A stretch of DNA of 32,368 nucleotides from Bernardetiaceae bacterium (GTDB lineage: Bacteria; Bacteroidota; Bacteroidia; Cytophagales; Bernardetiaceae). The stretch covers positions 1-32,368 of the forward strand of contig JAFIER010000084.1 of assembly GCA_020832465.1 (NCBI GenBank), read 5' to 3'. The position numbers were made by a program, and so were the translations under genes. This document shows, piece by piece, positions 10,603 through 27,417 of this stretch (position 1 is its first letter; every line of letters starts with the position of its first letter). The notes below the pieces were generated by a model. That model was given only the letters and a program-made list of their open reading frames with translations. It did no database searches and had not been told where the DNA came from.

Positions 10603-10612
10603 GCTGCTATGC

Positions 10613-10732
10613 TACTACTATACATTCGGCGACCAGAAATAACATTTCTCTGAAAAATGTTATTTCTAAGCTCATTTTTCCATAGCCTCTGGGTTTTGCA
10701 AACGCCACGCTATGGAAAAATGTATAATAGTA
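10613..10732 (+). mobile_element. 120-bp MITE-like element (most complete copy)
   Basis: The ends TACTACTATACATT (10613-10626) and AATGTATAATAGTA (10719-10732) are inverted repeats matching at 13 of 14 positions. Inside are two hairpins: AGAAATAACATTT/AAATGTTATTTCT (10635-10667), and CATTTTTCCATAGC/GCTATGGAAAAATG (10673-10686 and 10709-10722) around a GTTTTGCAAAC-like loop. Partial relatives lie at about 16530-16614, 18882-18935, 21858-21928 and 22140-22222. It encodes nothing, so any movement would depend on a transposase elsewhere. No clear target-site duplication is visible. Confidence 0.7.
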
Positions 10733-10753
10733 TGGTTCTTGATATTTCTAATT

Positions 10754-10844
10754 GGTAGTGTATAACAAGTAATGCTTAGAACTAACAGTTCTTTGAGAAC
10801 TGTTAGTTTTGAAAGACTTTGAGCATTACATCTTTAAGACTACC
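10754..10844 (+). mobile_element. 91-bp palindromic element, copy 1
   Basis: It starts GGTAGTGTATAAC and ends AAGACTACC, and the GGTAGT/ACTACC ends are inverted repeats. Nested inside are GTAATGCT/AGCATTAC arms and a perfect 13-bp hairpin, AACTAACAGTTCT-TTG-AGAACTGTTAGTT (10780-10808). The reverse complement of 16794-16887 is identical apart from three extra bases (AAC). Such identity in non-coding DNA 6 kb away implies recent copying or gene conversion. Confidence 0.75.
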
Positions 10845-10899
10845 TTCTAATTTTCAGTTATATGCTTATTTTCCATATTTTTTTGCAGTTCAAAACAAT

Positions 10900-10928
10900 T
10901 TGGCAGTAAGAATCATAAACTATTTTTG
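10900..10928 (+). promoter_or_regulatory. Bacteroidota-type promoter for the 448-residue gene
   Basis: TTG at 10900-10902, an 18-base spacer, then TATTTTTG at 10921-10928, matching TTG-N-TAnnTTTG. Transcription would start near 10934, giving a leader of about 20 bases to the ATG at 10956 or about 160 to the ATG at 11094. Confidence 0.6.
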
Positions 10929-10955
10929 CTTGAATAGGGTTTACCTTATTAAGAA

Positions 10956-12302
10956 ATGACCGAAAAGCAAACGCTTTGCCTTTATCGCAAGGCTTTAAGG
11001 TTATTAAAGCTATATCAAAAATCAATTTTCACCTTAAAAATAGTCATTGTTTTGCACGAGAAAGAACAGGATATCATCTACGAAATTTCTACAATGCGTC
11101 CGATGAGCAGTGTTTTTATAGGCAAACTCATCACAGGACTTGCATTCGCTTATAGCATGGTATGGATGCCTATGCTATTTCAGCTATTATTTGCCTTTAT
11201 TTCTGTATCTATTTTAGTGCCTCTTTTTAAAGAGTATTGGTACAAACAGATTAAAGGTATTCGGCTGACAAACGATTATTTAGATGTAACAAGAGGGGCT
11301 AATAGCGAAGTAGAACGTATTTATTTAGACGAAATTAAGCGCATTGAACTTGTAGAAAAACACAAAAATCAAATGCGTCGTCGCCGTCATAGGCGTGAGG
11401 GTGAAGTCGCTACCGTTCTTTTTGAAAGCGAGGTAGAAACAAGACACTACCACCCCGAGACAAAATGCGTCATTACAGATAAACAAGGTAGGCGCTACGA
11501 CATCGAATGTCATTTTTTCTTAGATGGCGATTTTGATGAGTTTTTGAAAGTTTTCGAACAGACTTACGCACGATTGCTCAAAGGCGACAAAACACCTTTG
11601 CAACCTAATGCAACATTACATACAGGCTTACCTAATGAAAAGGTCATTGCAAGTATGATCAAGCAGCACCCATCTGTCGAAAAAATTGCGCAAATTATTG
11701 CACAAAACAACCAGTATTTACAAGAAGATATAGACCTAAAGCACTCAATAGAGCAAAATCTACTCGAGGCTTATGAGGGCGCTTACCATCTTAGAGATAC
11801 TTTTGAGATTACAAAAATGCCTAATCCCGAGATTATCTATGAGTATAAAAAATCCAATGAAAGCAAAACTCTTTATATTCTCAAAGAAGATTATCTCGAA
11901 AAGCTCGATCCCGATACCTTAGCTATTGGAAAAAATATTATAGAGGCCTGTCATAAAAATATTAAACTCGTCGAGACACGCATTGCCTATTACCAAAAAA
12001 TAGAGCAAAAACTCGAGCAAATTAAATTTCAAATCGAGAGCCGTTTGCGATTCCAAAAACTCACAAACCGCCTCAAAAATTTGCAAGAGAGAAACACAAA
12101 CAAAAGCATCGATCAAAATATGGTTAATGTTTCTGATAATGACATAGATACGCGCGTATTGCACGAGCTTGCCGAGCTCTCGCACAAAGTGCACAACCTC
12201 GAAGACTTAGAAAACGCTGTTATCTTAAACGAGCATATTTCGCTTTTCAAAGAACATGAAGCTCCCAAAGATAACCCTGAAAAAAATGATACTTTGAGCT
12301 AA
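10956..12302 (+). CDS. Membrane protein with long helical C-terminal region, unknown function
   Basis: I do not recognise a family. The 448-residue product has a hydrophobic stretch at about 55-90 (VFIGKLITGLAFAYSMVW and LFQLLFAFISVSILVPLF), which would form one hairpin or two membrane helices. A basic region around HKNQMRRRRHRREGEVATVL (135-154) follows, and the surrounding strands resemble a PH-like or bPH domain. From about residue 220 onward it is highly charged and mostly helical, with coiled-coil character (IEQKLEQIKFQIESRLRFQK). The start is uncertain: the ATG at 10956 follows a good promoter closely, but the 46 residues before the in-frame ATG at 11094 are unremarkable. A strong hairpin terminator follows 6 bases after the stop. 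Confidence 0.7.
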   Translation: MTEKQTLCLYRKALRLLKLYQKSIFTLKIVIVLHEKEQDIIYEISTMRPMSSVFIGKLITGLAFAYSMVWMPMLFQLLFAFISVSILVPLFKEYWYKQIKGIRLTNDYLDVTRGANSEVERIYLDEIKRIELVEKHKNQMRRRRHRREGEVATVLFESEVETRHYHPETKCVITDKQGRRYDIECHFFLDGDFDEFLKVFEQTYARLLKGDKTPLQPNATLHTGLPNEKVIASMIKQHPSVEKIAQIIAQNNQYLQEDIDLKHSIEQNLLEAYEGAYHLRDTFEITKMPNPEIIYEYKKSNESKTLYILKEDYLEKLDPDTLAIGKNIIEACHKNIKLVETRIAYYQKIEQKLEQIKFQIESRLRFQKLTNRLKNLQERNTNKSIDQNMVNVSDNDIDTRVLHELAELSHKVHNLEDLENAVILNEHISLFKEHEAPKDNPEKNDTLS

Positions 12303-12308
12303 AAATTT

Positions 12309-12358
12309 AAGCCGTAGTAATAACAGCATCTAAAAAATGTTATTGCTACGGCTTTTAA
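12309..12358 (+). terminator. Hairpin terminator after the 448-residue gene
   Basis: Arms AAGCCGTAG-t-AATAACA (12309-12325) and TGTTATT-g-CTACGGCTT (12338-12354), followed by TTAATA, form a stem of 16 pairs with one internal mismatch. It begins 6 bases past the stop codon. The AATAACA/TGTTATT part resembles the dispersed hairpin family. Confidence 0.6.
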
Positions 12359-12407
12359 TACCTTAAAATATATATCAAATAACTACACACTATTAGCTTG
12401 CTTACTC

Positions 12408-12758
12408 ATGAAAATTATCGAAGATTTATGTCAAATTGAATATGTGGCAGTGCAAAATTGCCTTTATGCCAACTTAACAAAACGGCTTACCCAATCGCAA
12501 TGGGAAGTTGCTTTAGGTAAAATCAAAGTAGAAGCCGCTCATTACGAAGACCTTAAAATGCTTATAGAAGCCAGTGAATTAGAAAATATGGAAACGCTTT
12601 TTTTACCCTATTTTTTTGATATATTTGCAAGTGAAAATATCAAAAAATGTGCTGTTGTCTTAGCCAAAAAAACCGAAACAAAAACAGTGGCTAGTCGCTA
12701 CATGGAAGTTGCTTTTTTTGAAACGGAAAACGAAGCCAAAAACTGGCTATTAGGTTAA
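12408..12758 (+). CDS. Small STAS/SpoIIAA-like protein (tentative)
   Basis: The product is 116 residues with no signal peptide or membrane helix, so cytosolic. The pattern of strand, helix and a late VVLAKKTETKTVASRYM segment, followed by VAFFETENEAKNWLLG at the end, is reminiscent of SpoIIAA-like/STAS domains, in which a short protein ends with an entry such as F.....A..WL. This resemblance is weak and no motif is diagnostic. The gene lies alone between a terminator and the agmatine deiminase gene, same strand, with a 156-base gap that carries a 91-bp element. Confidence 0.6.
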   Translation: MKIIEDLCQIEYVAVQNCLYANLTKRLTQSQWEVALGKIKVEAAHYEDLKMLIEASELENMETLFLPYFFDIFASENIKKCAVVLAKKTETKTVASRYMEVAFFETENEAKNWLLG

Positions 12759-12790
12759 ACCAAAACGCAACACCTGCACATCTAATAGTT

Positions 12791-12881
12791 ATTATCACGT
12801 TTAAATAATACGAGAAAACTTGCCGTGTTTGCTGTCCCCACCAAACACTTATAAGTGGAGTAGAAAAACAAACGTGATAAT
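12791..12881. repeat. 91-bp element with 12-bp terminal inverted repeats and inner GTGTTTG hairpin
   Basis: The ends ATTATCACGTTT (12791-12802) and AAACGTGATAAT (12870-12881) are perfect inverted repeats. Nested inside are GTGTTTG (12825-12831) and CAAACAC (12842-12848), sharing the GCCGTGTTTGCT core with copies near 7344 and, on the opposite strand, 30172. It fills most of the gap before the agmatine deiminase gene, so that gene's leader or promoter may be affected. Confidence 0.65.
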
Positions 12882-12914
12882 CTTTAATTGCTTACCAATA
12901 TTTAGTTTTTCTAT

Positions 12915-13937
12915 ATGATGAATATTCGTTTCCCCGCAGAATGGGAGCCGCAGAGTGCTGTACAGCTTACACTACCACACTCAGCAACTGATTGGGCTGA
13001 TATGCTTTCAGAAGTAATGCCCTGCTTTATAGATATTATCAATGCCATTAGCCGCTTTCAAAAGGTATTGCTTGTAAGTAACGACAAAACTCAAATTATA
13101 CCGCTTTTAGAAAAACCAGAAGCTATCATTTGGGCAGAAGGCATTCCAAGTAATGATACTTGGGCACGAGACCACGCACCGCTGAGCATTGTTGTCAATC
13201 AAAATAATACCGTATTGCTCAATTTTATTTTTAATGGTTGGGGGCTTAAATTTGCTGCTTTTCACGATCATCTAATCAACGAAAAGCTCAAAGCAGAAGG
13301 TTTTTTTGGAAAAATACCTATGCAAAATATGGGCTTTGTTTTTGAAGGGGGTGCTATCGAATCTGACGGGGAGGGCACGCTTCTCACTACTGCTGCTTGT
13401 TTGCTTTCGCGTAATCGCAATCCACATTTGAATAAAACTGAAATTGAATCTTTTTTATTGGATACTTTCGGCGCTGAGCGTCTGCTATGGCTACATCACG
13501 GTGCATTAGAAGGCGATGATACTGATGCTCATATCGATACACTCGCCCGTTTTTGTGCTAAAGATACGATTGCTTACGTAGGACTTCCCCCTCAATCGGA
13601 CAGCCATTATCCCTCTCTTTTGGCAATGCAAACCGAGCTAAAAGGCTTTAGGCAACGTAATGGTGCGCCCTATCGCTTAGTGCCATTGCCTTTTCCCGAT
13701 GCCATTTATAGTGCTGAGGGGCATCGCCTACCCGCTACTTATGCCAATTTTTTGATTATCAATAACGCCCTGCTTTTGCCTATTTATAAAGTTCGTCAAG
13801 ACGAAGAAGCCATTGCCTGCCTCAAAAAAATATTCCCCGAAAGAGAAATTATTCCGATTGACTGCCGACCGCTTATCGAGCAACACGGCTCGCTACACTG
13901 CGTTACAATGCAATATCCCAAAGGTATAATAAGTTAG
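12915..13937 (+). CDS. aguA: Agmatine deiminase family protein
   Basis: A 340-residue member of the agmatine deiminase/Porphyromonas peptidylarginine deiminase family. The likely reaction is agmatine to N-carbamoylputrescine plus ammonia, a step in putrescine synthesis. The guanidine-modifying fold is shown by NDTWARDHAPL (74-84), FVFEGGAIESDGEGTLLTT, the catalytic histidine/aspartate segment DTDAHIDTLARF, and the nucleophilic cysteine in GSLHCVTMQYP (C329). There is no signal peptide, which favours the cytosolic agmatine enzyme over secreted peptidylarginine deiminases. ATG codons at 12915 and 12918 both fit. No N-carbamoylputrescine amidohydrolase gene, its usual partner, is in the window. 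A small hairpin 20 bases after the stop may end the transcript. Confidence 0.9.
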   Translation: MMNIRFPAEWEPQSAVQLTLPHSATDWADMLSEVMPCFIDIINAISRFQKVLLVSNDKTQIIPLLEKPEAIIWAEGIPSNDTWARDHAPLSIVVNQNNTVLLNFIFNGWGLKFAAFHDHLINEKLKAEGFFGKIPMQNMGFVFEGGAIESDGEGTLLTTAACLLSRNRNPHLNKTEIESFLLDTFGAERLLWLHHGALEGDDTDAHIDTLARFCAKDTIAYVGLPPQSDSHYPSLLAMQTELKGFRQRNGAPYRLVPLPFPDAIYSAEGHRLPATYANFLIINNALLLPIYKVRQDEEAIACLKKIFPEREIIPIDCRPLIEQHGSLHCVTMQYPKGIIS

Positions 13938-13957
13938 AAATCAACTTAGATAATTTC

Positions 13958-13990
13958 AGAACTAACAGTTTTTCGTAAGCTGTTAGTTCT
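13958..13990. repeat. ACTAACAG hairpin after the agmatine deiminase gene
   Basis: Perfect 11-bp arms AGAACTAACAG and CTGTTAGTTCT surround an 11-base loop. It is a divergent member of the dispersed A[C/A]TAACA hairpin family, placed 20 bases past a stop codon with no T-tract. It may stabilise or end the transcript. Confidence 0.55.
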
Positions 13991-14050
13991 TGATAATTAG
14001 CAAATTAAAGAACAGTTATTTCCAACTTATAAACTACGCCATGAAATCAC

Positions 14051-14512
14051 TTACTTTACCTCTTTGGCTTTTTTGAGCATATAAATCAAATGATTAGCAT
14101 CTTTTCGGTTGAGATACAGTATGCCTTCTACTTTGATTTTTTTCTTATCCAAACGCACGGGCTCTGCCACATAGACCTCCATGACCGTCTCCGGGCCCGC
14201 CTGTCCACAAAAAAAGCAAACTTCAAAGGGGTAGGCAGAGAGTGCAAAGTAGTTTTCACCTATTTCCATTGGTATGATATACCCCTCTATTTGTACCTTT
14301 TTTTTGTCTAAAGCCTCCACATCTGCATGAAACTCTGGGACGGATACTTTATAGCCAACATCATGATTCATTTCAGTTCTGAAATTGACTTTCGAGAGCT
14401 GTAACCAATCTATCTTTGTTGCTTTTAGCCAATCTTTTTGGGCATGTAGCTCCGTAGAAAACAAAGTATAAAAAGCACATAAAAACCCTATCAAAATAAT
14501 TCTTAACCACAT
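14051..14512 (-). CDS. Secreted DUF3299-like protein
   Basis: About 153 residues from the ATG at 14512; the frame begins two codons earlier at a TTG. A signal peptide (LRIILIGFLCAFYTLFSTELHAQ) points to export. The mature part has the DUF3299 layout: VEALDKKKVQIEGYIIPMEI, then FALSAYPFEVCFFCGQAGPE, then KKIKVEGILYLN. The CFFC pair could bind a metal or form a disulphide; the function of the family is not established to my knowledge. It lies just downstream of the outer-membrane beta-barrel gene on the same strand, with about 60 bases between, so the two may be co-transcribed. Confidence 0.75.
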   Translation of the reverse strand: MWLRIILIGFLCAFYTLFSTELHAQKDWLKATKIDWLQLSKVNFRTEMNHDVGYKVSVPEFHADVEALDKKKVQIEGYIIPMEIGENYFALSAYPFEVCFFCGQAGPETVMEVYVAEPVRLDKKKIKVEGILYLNRKDANHLIYMLKKAKEVK

Positions 14513-14570
14513 ATTCAATCTTAAAGGTAAAACTCACACTATACGAATAAAAAACACTGTGTTCAGCAAG

Positions 14571-15251
14571 CTATCTAATCGGAACCAATAGCGAAAATTT
14601 CATACTCAATACTTGGTCTCTTCTATCAGGATTTCCAAGTTCGGAGATATTATCCAGATAATCTGTAAAAGGATTAAGAAATCCCATATTGGCAGCAAAT
14701 CCAAATCCATTTTCAAAGATATAATGCCCACCTATACGGATAGGCAACATAATGGCATTGCTGTTATATATTTCTGTAAAATTGCGTGTATTGTTCTGGT
14801 CAGCAAGGGCATTTCCATTATCATCACGTGGAGTGAAGTTGAGCAGTCCGATGCCGGGTGCAATATAAAGTGTGTAGCGTTCGTGTCGTAAAAACTGTAT
14901 TCTAAGCTCTGCTTGCAAAGCGACAAAATTCGTATAAAAACTACGATTGGGTTGAGTACCCTCCAATAGTAGGGAATCAGGCATACTTGCATTAAACAAG
15001 TGATTACTTCCTTGAATGCGCCCTATGCTAAGAGAAGTAGCTGGTGCGATGAGTGCATCTTTGTTCCAAACTGCACCAATATGAAAGGTTCGCCCCCAGG
15101 AGCGAAAACGGTTTTGTAAATCACCGCGGTAGGCATCAGCACTCATACCCAATTCTAAAAAAAGTTTGGGCGGCTCCTCTTGTGCTTGCAAATGCTGTAA
15201 ACTACATAGACTGCAAATCCATACGAGAAGAAAAGTAATAATTTTTTGCAT
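14571..15251 (-). CDS. Outer-membrane beta-barrel protein
   Basis: A 226-residue protein with a clear signal peptide ending LQHLQAQ, followed by alternating hydrophobic and polar strands rich in glycine and aromatic residues (LFLELGMSADAYRGDL, YTLYIAPGIGLLNF, IGGHYIFENGFGFAANMGFL). The last strand, QVLSMKFSLLVPIR, ends close to the C-terminus as in barrels. It resembles the small PorT/OmpX-like barrels of Bacteroidota, but no specific role can be read. It is leftward, upstream of the DUF3299-like gene and downstream of the DUF4837 lipoprotein gene. Confidence 0.8.
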   Translation of the reverse strand: MQKIITFLLVWICSLCSLQHLQAQEEPPKLFLELGMSADAYRGDLQNRFRSWGRTFHIGAVWNKDALIAPATSLSIGRIQGSNHLFNASMPDSLLLEGTQPNRSFYTNFVALQAELRIQFLRHERYTLYIAPGIGLLNFTPRDDNGNALADQNNTRNFTEIYNSNAIMLPIRIGGHYIFENGFGFAANMGFLNPFTDYLDNISELGNPDRRDQVLSMKFSLLVPIR

Positions 15252-15279
15252 AATTTTGTGGGTTTATCTATTTCAAACC

Positions 15280-15313
15280 GTGCTACCATGTACCAATGGC
15301 TTAGAAGTAGCAC
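15280..15313. repeat. Hairpin between the lipoprotein and beta-barrel genes
   Basis: GTGCTAC (15280-15286) pairs with GTAGCAC (15307-15313) around a 20-base loop that is itself partly palindromic. It lies in the 113-base gap between two leftward genes and could be a weak terminator or a processing site. Confidence 0.35.
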
Positions 15314-15364
15314 CTTTATAAAACACTGATAATCAAACATTAAAATTCTATCAAATAAATTTCG

Positions 15365-16453
15365 CTACTCTTTAAACGTAAAAGTGCGCATCATGCTTTC
15401 CATTTCTCGCAAATAATCACGCTTATCAGCAGAGGGTGCATAAATAAATGCCTCTATATAATACAATCTGCTTCGGTCTGCATTCGTAAAAGCATAAGCT
15501 ACAAACGGACCGCCCATAGAGAGCGAACTCGTGCGCCATAAGGCACGCAGCTCTACGGCAAATTGATTTTTGAATGTAAAATCCCTTCTACTCGCCTCAA
15601 ATTCTGTTTGTGGTTGAATCTGGATATATGAGCCATAATCGGGGTCTCTCATATACTTCTTAGCCACAGAATCGCGAAAAGCCAATAAGGCTTCGGTCTC
15701 AAACTGTTTTTCAGATACATAAGGGCAATGCGCTACAAAAAAGTTTCTATCCATATTTTGCGATACTTGGCGTGTAAAGAAAAAACCTGTATCCTGCTCA
15801 ATGACATTCCTTGCAATCAAAAAGTCTTTGGGTATCTTGACCGTAAAGTGCTGTACTTTTTGTATTTCCTCTTCTAATAAAACTTCGATGCCCGCTTTAT
15901 ACAGATTTTTATGGGCTTTTTCGTACTCATTTTTAAGTAATATATCCCTTATTTTTTGAGTATTTTGTTTGAGGTGTCGCTCGAGGAGTGCGTCATTTTT
16001 GGCAAAAAGAAATAAAATATTCTGTCCCTTTGCGTACTGGTCGGTTTTTAGTAGCATGAATTTGCTTGTATCCTGCTCTATTTGTTGCAAACTGCTTTGA
16101 GAAAAAAACTTTTTAATGAGCCTTGATCCGTGTGTATCAGAGTTTTCAAGCGAAAGCACAAAAACAAGGGCTTGGTGTCCTTTCAAAAAATCATTAAGTT
16201 TGATAGGATCTAACCATTGCGCATTAAAAATTGGCTCTGCTTGCAACAGCCCTTCTTGGGGTGCACGAAACACCTCCCTAACCTGCTCTCCTAGGCTGTT
16301 TTTCCATTTGCTCGAATCCATGACAAGCATAATTTCGCTCCGTCCGCCTTTAGCTTTGGGTAACAAATCTTTATAAGTTTGCGGAGTGCCCGAGTCGCAG
16401 GCGATGCAAAAAATTAAAGGCAAAATATATGACAAATTTTTCAGAATGCGCAT
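15365..16453 (-). CDS. DUF4837 family lipoprotein
   Basis: A 362-residue lipoprotein of the Bacteroidota-specific DUF4837 family. The lipobox IFCIAC places the lipidated cysteine at residue 19. The family's opening block is recognisable: LPKAKGGRSEIMLVMDSSKW followed by LGEQVREVFRAPQEGL and then EPIFNAQWLDP. Conserved aromatic-rich segments continue to the C-terminal FIYAPSADKRDYLREMESMM. The function is unknown; members are predicted to be attached to the periplasmic face of a membrane. It is the first gene of the leftward run at 14051-16453. Confidence 0.85.
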   Translation of the reverse strand: MRILKNLSYILPLIFCIACDSGTPQTYKDLLPKAKGGRSEIMLVMDSSKWKNSLGEQVREVFRAPQEGLLQAEPIFNAQWLDPIKLNDFLKGHQALVFVLSLENSDTHGSRLIKKFFSQSSLQQIEQDTSKFMLLKTDQYAKGQNILFLFAKNDALLERHLKQNTQKIRDILLKNEYEKAHKNLYKAGIEVLLEEEIQKVQHFTVKIPKDFLIARNVIEQDTGFFFTRQVSQNMDRNFFVAHCPYVSEKQFETEALLAFRDSVAKKYMRDPDYGSYIQIQPQTEFEASRRDFTFKNQFAVELRALWRTSSLSMGGPFVAYAFTNADRSRLYYIEAFIYAPSADKRDYLREMESMMRTFTFKE

Positions 16454-16865
16454 AAAAATAATGGGTATGATTGAATTTTAGACTGCTATTCAAGACTTGA
16501 TCGTGTGTTCCGCCTATAATGCTTCATACTAATGTACATTCGCTAATTATAAATAACATTTCTCAAAGAAATGTTATTTATAAGCCCATTTTTCCATAGC
16601 AAAGGGCTTGCAAACTAACTATTTTGACAATAACATTATAAACATAATAACAGCAACATAAGTCTTTATTACTGTTTTTAGCATGGCCATGCTGATATGT
16701 GCATGCAGTAATCTTTTAGTATAATACATATTGTTCGCTTTAGCCACAAATTTAGGCAAAGAAATCAAATTTTCAGATTTGATTATTTTTTTGGGTAGTC
16801 TTAAAGATGTAATGCTCAAAGTCTTTCAAAACTAACAGTTCTCAAAGAACTGTTAGTTCTAAGCA
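16454..16865. other. 412-bp intergenic stretch with partial MITE and 94-bp element
   Basis: No convincing gene. It carries a truncated relative of the 120-bp element (about 16530-16614) and most of the 94-bp element (16794-16887). A 66-codon leftward frame at 16619-16819 begins at a TTG inside the element and is judged spurious. Confidence 0.65.
16530..16614 (+). mobile_element. Left part of the 120-bp element family
   Basis: It begins ACTAATGTACATTCG, like the left end at 10613, and contains a perfect 17-bp hairpin with loop CAA (16547-16583; core AATAACATTTCT). It continues AAGCCCATTTTTCCATAGC and TTGCAAAC, then loses the second arm. It is therefore truncated on the right. Confidence 0.6.
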
Positions 16866-16887
16866 TTACTTGTTGTTATACACTACC
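16794..16887 (-). mobile_element. 94-bp palindromic element, copy 2, overlapping the meaB stop
   Basis: This is the reverse complement of 10754-10844 with three additional bases and otherwise identical. The end nearest meaB contributes the final codons (VVYNNK and the TAA stop), so this end of the element is translated. Flanking sequence beyond the GGTAGT ends shows no similarity to the other copy's flanks. Confidence 0.75.
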
Positions 16888-17870
16888 TTTTTTTGATAGC
16901 CTTTAATCAGTTCTTGTGCCATTGTAATGGGGTCTTTTAATCCCTGAGCTACGAGTTTTTCTTTTTGTTTGAGTTCTTGTTTGATATAAGGGTTATTATA
17001 AAAGTTTTGTTCTAACTGTTCGCTAATCGTTTCGTGTAGCCAGCTTAGGTTTTGCTCTTGACGATTATGCTGAAAAAATCCTTTAATTTGCGTGTGCTGT
17101 TCAAACTCGGTAATCATTTTCCATATATCTTTGATCCCCGTTTGCTCTATAGCAGAGCAGGTTTTGACTTTTGGAATCCAGCCCGAGGGCGTGGGTGGAA
17201 AAAGGTGTAGCGCACTTTTATATTGGGAAGCTGCTGCTTTTGCTTTTTGCAAATTATCAGCATCAGCTTTATTGATAGCAATGGCATCAGCCATTTCCAT
17301 AATGCCGCGTTTGATGCCTTGTAGCTCGTCTCCAGCCCCTGCCAGCATCAGCAACAGAAAGAAATCTACCATATTTTTGACTAAAGTTTCGGACTGCCCC
17401 ACACCTACAGTTTCGATAATAATAGTATCAAAACCCGCTGCTTCGCAAAGTAGCATCGCCTCACGCGTCTTACGGGCTACCCCTCCAAGCGATTTGCCCG
17501 CCGCACTGGGGCGAATATAAGCATGAGGGTGGTGTGCTAATGCCTCCATGCGTGTTTTGTCGCCCAGAATGCTCCCTCGGCTAAGCTGGCTACTCGGGTC
17601 TATAGCTAAAATAGCTATCTTTTTGCCTAAAGCAGCAAGCATAAGCCCAAAACTTTCGATAAAAGTGCTCTTACCTACACCCGGCACGCCCGTAATGCCA
17701 ATACGTAGGCTATTGCCCGTGTGGGGAAGAATCTCCGCTATTAAAGCACGGCTCAGCACGGCATCACGCTCTAAATTACTCTCTATCAATGTAATAGCCC
17801 TACTCAAAACAAAACGATTGCCTTCTAAAATGCCGTCCTTATAAGCCGCTACAGATAGTCTTTCTCTCAT
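16866..17870 (-). CDS. meaB: MeaB/ArgK-type GTPase chaperone of methylmalonyl-CoA mutase
   Basis: A G3E-family GTPase that protects and reactivates adenosylcobalamin-dependent methylmalonyl-CoA mutase. The P-loop GITGVPGVGKSTF, the family block DPSSQLSRGSILGDKTRM, ETVGVGQSE and the base-recognition NKAD are all present. The ATG at 17870 gives a typical N-terminus (MRERLSVAAYKDGIL); a TTG at 17909 would add 13 hydrophobic residues and is less likely. The length (334 residues) is normal. The last residues VVYNNK and the stop codon lie inside a repeated 94-bp element, so the extreme C-terminus was probably replaced by that insertion. No mutase subunit gene is in the window. Confidence 0.9.
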   Translation of the reverse strand: MRERLSVAAYKDGILEGNRFVLSRAITLIESNLERDAVLSRALIAEILPHTGNSLRIGITGVPGVGKSTFIESFGLMLAALGKKIAILAIDPSSQLSRGSILGDKTRMEALAHHPHAYIRPSAAGKSLGGVARKTREAMLLCEAAGFDTIIIETVGVGQSETLVKNMVDFFLLLMLAGAGDELQGIKRGIMEMADAIAINKADADNLQKAKAAASQYKSALHLFPPTPSGWIPKVKTCSAIEQTGIKDIWKMITEFEQHTQIKGFFQHNRQEQNLSWLHETISEQLEQNFYNNPYIKQELKQKEKLVAQGLKDPITMAQELIKGYQKKVVYNNK

Positions 17871-22139: not shown

Positions 22140-22222
22140 AATAGCTATAGAAAAATGGGCTTAGCAATAACGTTTCTTTGAGAAATGTTATTGCAGGAAG
22201 GAGAATGTTCAGTAGTATGATG
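22140..22222 (-). mobile_element. Left part of the 120-bp element family, inverted
   Basis: Read on the minus strand it begins TACTACTGAACATTC, close to the left end at 10613. It then has the hairpin GCAATAACATTTCT-CAA-AGAAACGTTATTGC (22164-22194, one G-T wobble) and AAGCCCATTTTTCTATAGC, and it lacks the second hairpin arm. Confidence 0.55.
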
Positions 22223-27319: not shown

Positions 27320-27327
27320 CAAATTCC

Positions 27328-27372
27328 AAATCCATAACTAACAGTTCTCACAGAACTGTTAGTTATGGATTT
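27328..27372. repeat. 21-bp perfect hairpin in the valS leader
   Basis: Arms 27328-27348 and 27352-27372 are exact inverted repeats with loop CAC. The inner part is ACTAACAGTTCT, shared with copies at 10780 and 16830, while the outer AAATCCATA is unique to this site. It sits in the divergent gap between the DUF262 gene and valS, about 45 bases before the valS ATG. Confidence 0.8.
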
Positions 27373-27417
27373 GCATTCCGTTATTTAATACATTTTATCG
27401 CATAAAATGCCATTCTG

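Follow-up and report, generated by a model that had tools for sequence, protein, structure and literature searches.

A recently amplified IS1-type MITE with a probable REP-like hairpin core in a Bernardetiaceae draft genome

Background

Bacterial miniature inverted-repeat transposable elements (MITEs) derived from insertion sequences (ISs), and the repetitive extragenic palindromic (REP) elements of REP-associated tyrosine transposase (RAYT) genes, are the systems closest to a 91-bp element that occurs twice, in opposite orientation, in contig JAFIER010000084.1 of a Bernardetiaceae bacterium. The whole stretch analysed (32,368 nt, hereafter the window) belongs to a 4.6-Mb draft genome of 289 contigs (G000, the source genome). 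Among the IS-derived MITEs, the passages on MITEAba12 describe a 113-bp element with 9-bp duplications and ends common to an IS (PMC6382973). REPs lying within longer repeated palindromes of shared consensus are described in a section on A. variabilis, T. roseum and H. neapolitanus (PMC3733652). As to the RAYT genes, a 2018 survey, in its parts on these subclasses, found no REP-like sequences for subclass 2.1 and calls REPs within the RAYT gene a unique feature of subclass 2.4 (PMC6006769).

The duplicated sequence of the window is a recently amplified MITE. We read it, with a probability of about 0.86, as a non-autonomous IS1-family MITE with a REP hairpin core. Judged by its sequence, it is a fusion of two kinds of mobile DNA, IS1 ends and an unrelated REP centre, in one very short unit.

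Copies of the element, target duplications and age

With a gap placed for one 3-nt AAC (AACAAC versus AAC), copies A and B agree in all 91 alignment columns, and the sequence around them, outside GGTAGT...ACTACC, is unrelated, as stated in the preliminary description of an oppositely oriented pair differing by 3 bp only. A repeat search also returned them as the longest inverted pair of the window (81 bp, 100% complementary), and the copy A strand folds far better than its own shuffles (z score of -5.7). Each copy is flanked by its own perfect 8-bp target duplication:

10746 to 10753: left target-site duplication of copy A, TTCTAATT
10754 to 10844, forward strand: MITE copy A, 91 bp, from the alignment and the genome matches
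10845 to 10852: right target-site duplication of copy A, TTCTAATT
16786 to 16793: target-site duplication of copy B, TTTTTTTG
16794 to 16887, reverse strand: MITE copy B, 94 bp, with AAC duplicated
16872 to 16877, reverse strand: AACAAC, the 3-bp indel, a tandem AAC duplication within end L of copy B
16888 to 16895: target-site duplication of copy B, TTTTTTTG

The 78-nt core of the element has 103 matches in the source genome at up to three mismatches (48 forward and 55 reverse), and a reversed-pattern control gave none. Among the matches listed (100 of the 103), at least 81 are exact, 14 have one mismatch and five have two. Fifty-seven distinct copies were collected, five of them without a recognisable left end; in the other 52, which could be tested for duplication, 40 exact 8-bp duplications were found, together with four having one mismatch and two having two. 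These duplications are 82% A+T, with A enriched at the left and T at the right. The AAC duplication is present in a single one of the 52 copies, copy B itself. The near-identity of the copies and their intact duplications point to a recent burst, and the very recent mobilisation proposed in the preliminary description is supported on the same two grounds. The element thus has the features of a MITE, being non-coding and, at 91 bp, too small to encode a transposase, with ends L and R that match at 17 of 22 bases and target duplications of a fixed length of 8 bp.

Some copies elsewhere in the genome have a different structure. One of them (L060, 253-366) contains an internal 23-bp tandem duplication and keeps its 8-bp target duplication intact. 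At L052, L056, L059 and L065 the left MITE end and the hairpin are followed by unrelated sequence, forming half elements without a right end.

An inversion of the 6-kb segment between copies A and B, which the pair had been suspected to promote, is physically possible, but the octamers flanking the two copies are not mixed, so the segment has not been inverted an odd number of times since insertion. Net inversion by copies A and B is therefore not supported.

Kinship of the ends with IS1

Both ends of the element are of IS1 type:

10754 to 10775, forward strand: IS1-type end L, GGTAGTGTATAACAAGTAATGC, matching the end of the G023 IS1 element at 22/22 bases
10823 to 10844, reverse strand: IS1-type end R, GGTAGTCTTAAAGATGTAATGC

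Searched against a plasmid collection, the 91-mer gave three weak matches (E-values of 0.2-0.7), two of which adjoin annotated IS1-family transposase genes on Waddlia chondrophila pWc and Protochlamydia naegleriophila pPNK; the third, in Exiguobacterium, was dropped. There was no match in a phage collection. The Waddlia match is the end of an 833-bp element with an exact 8-bp duplication, and the IS1 ends of this plasmid match end R at 19/22 and 20/22 bases. Within the order, 17 of 148 sampled genomes (the source genome included) match the 91-mer at E-values of 0.01 or less, some of the matches hitting an end and others the hairpin.

In G023, 24 of 24 bases of end L (22/22 over the 22-mer) terminate an element that carries an InsA-like frame of 166 aa and an InsB-like frame of 195 aa that NCBIfam and Pfam class as IS1 (NF033558 with 105.8 bits for the InsB frame, PF03400 and PF03811). 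The same end is present at 22/22 in G039, in a transposase-bearing IS1 element, while a 1022-bp element of G087 carries both ends (21/22 for L, 20/22 for R). Duplications accompany other such elements, for example those of 1044 bp in G141 (exact, 8 bp) and of 961 bp in G124 (7/8); they are exact at 8 bp at the IS1 elements L050, L105, L069 and L108, and 7/8 at L113. MITEs in G122 and G136 have the same ends without this hairpin. In the source genome, 240 kb contain 80 GGTAGT-starting 22-mers, of which two equal an end of the MITE at 22/22, probably as part of a MITE copy, and the next best reaches 18.

The ends are therefore common to autonomous elements (G023 and G039, 22/22), none of which was found in the source genome, and both the ends and the duplication length are as in IS1 elements. 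Since the 91-bp unit is non-coding and has no InsA or InsB, it is a derivative of the IS1 family and not an IS.

The inner hairpin and RAYT genes

The central 33 nt form a hairpin with the format 15-3-15 (arm, loop, arm):

10778 to 10810, forward strand: inner REP-type hairpin of copy A, 33 nt, with two 15-nt arms (one mismatch) around a 3-nt loop
16828 to 16860, reverse strand: inner REP-type hairpin of copy B

Hairpins of this kind number 59 in 272 kb of the source genome, or about 1000 per genome by extrapolation; the 272 kb comprise the window and twenty 12-kb pieces, almost all of them taken from contigs with known MITE copies. Two main arms prevail, AGAAATAACATTTCT and AGAACTAACAGTTCT. 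The second of these, 15 nt long, recurs unchanged in G118, another Cytophagales genome, both upstream of and inside a RAYT gene, and all seven G118 matches to the 91-mer (6 of 10 candidates scored) are located at this gene. Its open frame of 235 aa obtains 44.9 bits with the NCBIfam REP-associated tyrosine transposase model, below the cut-off of 80; a profile of ten relatives matches 4er8, a TnpA-REP chain of solved structure (E-value of 5e-6), and there is conservation of the HUH and tyrosine motifs. A decayed RAYT in G124 shares 66% identity with the G118 protein (residues 4-44), and a hairpin of the same family stands about 48 bp ahead of the start codon of this decayed gene. The inner hairpin is hence a short palindrome of high copy number, with a RAYT association in G118 and (decayed) in G124, not in the source genome.

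Hairpins also accompany related RAYT loci. Within the order they lie in the gene or within 500 bp of it at 17 of 25 loci (left from 30, five having been dropped for want of an open reading frame identified by motif), and at eight of the 25 they fall within the gene as delimited by real open reading frames. In a wider scan, strong hairpins were found in the gene or within 400 bp at 64 of 80 RAYT loci among the matches listed, the format 15-3-15 being by far the commonest; at most 35 of these 80 have one within the gene, an upper bound, as a fixed window was used for most loci. The two sets of 30 and 80 overlap, and G118 is in both. Hairpin density is 1.50 per kb at RAYT loci versus 0.17 in other loci of the order. 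Moreover, the arms of loop-3 hairpins at RAYT loci are themselves 6-3-6 palindromes, 91 distinct arms reaching 4.59 of 6 pairs against 1.61 in shuffles (4.74 with one arm per locus, 50 loci), and both main arms of the source genome score 6 of 6.

A GT[AG]G motif within 3 nt of the foot shows no excess: it is present in 5 of 136 hairpins at RAYT loci and 2 of 105 from the source genome, against 6 of up to 136 at control positions 40 nt away, so the inner hairpin is at most a non-canonical REP. By eye, the motifs NHFH, FQ, YIHxNP and SS suggest that the RAYT group with these hairpins resembles subclass 2.1. The wording "MITE or REP-like" of the preliminary description can accordingly be divided: MITE stands for the whole element (inverted ends, 8-bp duplications, 103 copies, ends on IS1 elements elsewhere), whereas REP-like stands for the inner 33-nt hairpin and fails for the element as a unit.

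The only RAYT found in the source genome, at C105 (L100; NF047646, 88.3 bits), was rejected as the mobiliser. It stands, by eye, among copies of a different palindrome, ACCCTTTAGGGT. Two further Y1 matches, at C51 and C208 (open frames of 160 and 157 aa), are taken as IS200-like from their length alone.

Evaluation of alternative explanations

Several observations weigh against the proposed composite of an IS1-family MITE and a REP. Queries with PF03400, NF033558 and the G023 InsB protein revealed no credible IS1 transposase in the source draft genome; NF033558 finds IS1 in nine of 11 genomes of the family, the source genome not being among them. As an IS can drop out of a draft assembly, the absence is likely, not proved. 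Within the bacterium's own family, IS1 elements give weaker matches to the ends (G005, 12-16/22), the G087 element has no duplication, and neither the other end nor the duplication of the G023 element was found by end pairing. Six of the 52 copies have three or more mismatches in the 8-bp duplication (by eye, two of them have 7-bp repeats and one a 6-bp repeat). On the side of the hairpin, this very sequence occurs at one intact RAYT locus only (G118) besides the decayed G124 RAYT, and no RAYT of the G118 type was found in the source genome. In addition, 17 control hairpins away from RAYTs also reach 3.4 of 6 on the 6-3-6 measure; this control set may hold unrecognised REPs, and the signature stands out clearly from shuffles but less so from other hairpins. 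Two other candidates were discarded in the search for the mobiliser: a single weak PF03400 match with stops, at a locus whose genes look secretion- or tail-like by eye, and the IS1595 transposase (PF12762), of which the source genome has none.

The competing view that the whole 91-bp unit is a REP or REP doublet forming a hairpin (REPIN), that is, a RAYT-mobilised palindrome with two feet, GTAG and CTAC, at its opposite ends, would accommodate the GTAG and CTAC contained in GGTAGT...ACTACC, the strong folding of the unit, and the long double-foot REPs reported, in the part of the survey on it, for RAYT subclass 2.4 (PMC6006769). We nevertheless consider it very improbable, because REPINs are expected to lack target duplications and 40 of 52 copies have them, because IS1 elements of about 0.8-1 kb that contain DDE transposase frames are delimited by related ends, and because the single RAYT found in the genome is flanked, by eye, by another repeat. 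Y1 or RAYT transposition is not known to produce target duplications, so the term REP-like is wrong for the whole element, and mobilisation of the 91-bp unit by a RAYT alone is largely refuted by the duplications. Even less credible, to the point of being practically negligible, is a plain segmental duplication or an assembly artefact: the draft has 289 contigs and several of them terminate inside a MITE copy, but the 103 copies, their differing flanks and their copy-specific duplications refute it. The possibility that the genome has just the two copies, named in the preliminary description as a ground for refuting its proposal, is likewise contradicted by this number.

A further explanation concerns the inner hairpin only, which could be a transcription terminator or insulator selected by the host, its likeness to RAYT hairpins reflecting a common stem preference. 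In G008, four of five inspected hairpins of the same family (L299-L302) are followed, by eye, by T runs like those of intrinsic terminators, and hairpins of the source genome run on into longer palindromes more often than expected (see below). However, TTTT starts within 2 nt of either foot in just four of 105 source-genome hairpins, the hairpin sequence, beyond its structure alone, is common to several families of the order, identical arms cluster at one G118 RAYT gene with one copy within the gene, and most sampled hairpins lie near MITE-type sequences. We regard this explanation as unlikely and retain a REP core within an IS1-family MITE.

Other composites and proposed mechanism

Composites of IS1 ends and this hairpin are also present in two other genomes. 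In G085, five of the six examined are 91 bp long and one is 81 bp, with exact 8-bp duplications in three of the six; the two composites recognised in G124 are both 91 bp and have no exact duplication. The hairpin lies 2 nt from the GATGTAATGC end in G085 and G124 and 2 nt from the CAAGTAATGC end in the source genome; provided that GATGTAATGC and CAAGTAATGC are marks of the two ends, it stands beside opposite ends. Three genomes hence have composites of exactly 91 bp despite the differing hairpin side (window 10754-10844; L283-L286 and L288 in G085; L289 and L290 in G124), and this recurring length hints at a length constraint. Another MITE of G124, of 89 bp (L107, 1328-1416), has ends very close to those of the window MITE and a 15-3-15 hairpin of another sequence, an apparent cassette swap. 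Fusions of an IS1 MITE and a hairpin look recurrent.

Other MITE-like families carry the hairpin as well. Of the 59 sampled source-genome hairpins, 39 are within 140 nt of sequences typical of such families and 20 are not. In the family with CATACTACTATACATT ends, mostly 120-125 bp, the hairpin is enclosed in all 19 end pairs and 9-bp duplications occur in four; copies or parts of this family are found in the window at 10611-10734, 16527-16600 and 22144-22217. The GGGTGTACG-end family, with the ends GGGTGTACGACAACTTTGC and GGGTGTACGTCAAGTTGG, encloses it in 11 of 12 end pairs, with 8-bp duplications in six of 12 (a few end pairs overlap); examples are L121, 8567-8668, and L064, 185-373, both numbered on the reverse complement. 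A GGGTGCAATTCATA-end family, first counted as a carrier, was dropped after a recount found the hairpin in one of six end pairs. G147 has a unit of the form GGACTTACGCATTTTT-hairpin-AAAAATGCGTAAGTCC.

REP-type hairpins are also nested in longer local palindromes (window 27325-27375; L134, 8590-8644; L137, 6221-6273), as if inserted into the loop of older hairpins. Outside the MITE, 16 of 105 hairpins extend into longer palindromes by at least 5 bp, against about 3 expected from shuffled flanks. Pairing of the first eight flanking positions is hardly raised (2.82 versus 2.58, standard deviation 0.16), so loop insertion would apply to no more than a minority of the hairpins.

To account for the element we propose that the IS1 MITE is the older part and later received the hairpin, probably via RAYT action; the site of entry was perhaps the loop of the MITE palindrome in its single-stranded state, a step to which the excess of hairpins in longer palindromes lends weak support. 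A recent burst would then have followed, in which an IS1 transposase (DDE) acting in trans recognised and bound these ends and mobilised the 91-bp unit as a whole, the enzyme having afterwards been lost or lying outside the assembly. A more general idea, offered tentatively and at somewhat less than even odds, is that RAYT hairpins are a swappable cassette which unrelated MITEs have repeatedly taken up at their centre; these MITEs would include the IS1 type, two or more other kinds in the source genome and a GGACTTACGCA type in G147. Each such element would be a substrate for two enzymes of unrelated kind, its ends for a DDE transposase and its core for a RAYT, so that the REP family could spread and persist after RAYT loss.

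Neighbouring genes

The insertion site of copy B coincides with the stop codon of a meaB-like gene (PF03308), whose end is now read from the element:

16866 to 16886, reverse strand: last six codons and stop of the meaB-like gene (VVYNNK-stop), read from copy B

In an empty site with one 8-bp repeat, the meaB-like frame would end in TAA directly after the repeat. Between copies A and B lies a gene of the Porphyromonas-type peptidyl-arginine deiminase family (PF04371; window 12915-13937).

Comparison with known systems

No IS1 MITE with a REP core was found in the open-licence literature, searched by title and start of abstract, which is weak evidence of novelty. The element may be relevant to REP dispersal, as many REPs of the source genome appear to ride in MITEs, a mode that needs no resident RAYT, and it would bring two transposition systems together on a single short stretch of DNA. 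It may also define a REP format for a RAYT group (15-3-15, palindromic arms, no GTAG foot).

With IS1-family ISs (InsA/InsB) and IS-derived bacterial MITEs, the element shares GGT-starting inverted ends, 8-bp duplications and AT-rich targets, and like the latter it is a short non-coding derivative movable only in trans. It differs from them in that no resident transposase was found, and in its RAYT-type hairpin interior, its length of 91 bp and its about a hundred copies. MITEAba12 in particular has a coresident ISAba12; the passages on it list ISs with ends GGCTTTGTTGC... and mention no REP core (PMC6382973). The inner hairpin resembles the REP elements and REPtrons of RAYT (TnpA-REP) genes as a very-high-copy short palindrome with cognate copies beside and inside the G118 RAYT gene, whereas its lack of a GT[AG]G foot, its 33-nt 15-3-15 format with palindromic arms and its enclosure in MITEs with duplications set it apart. 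Finally, for the longer palindromes around REPs, section 7 of the earlier report gives consensus sequences, with no target duplication or transposon family (PMC3733652), whereas here the outer palindrome is, in our reading, an IS1-type MITE with duplications.

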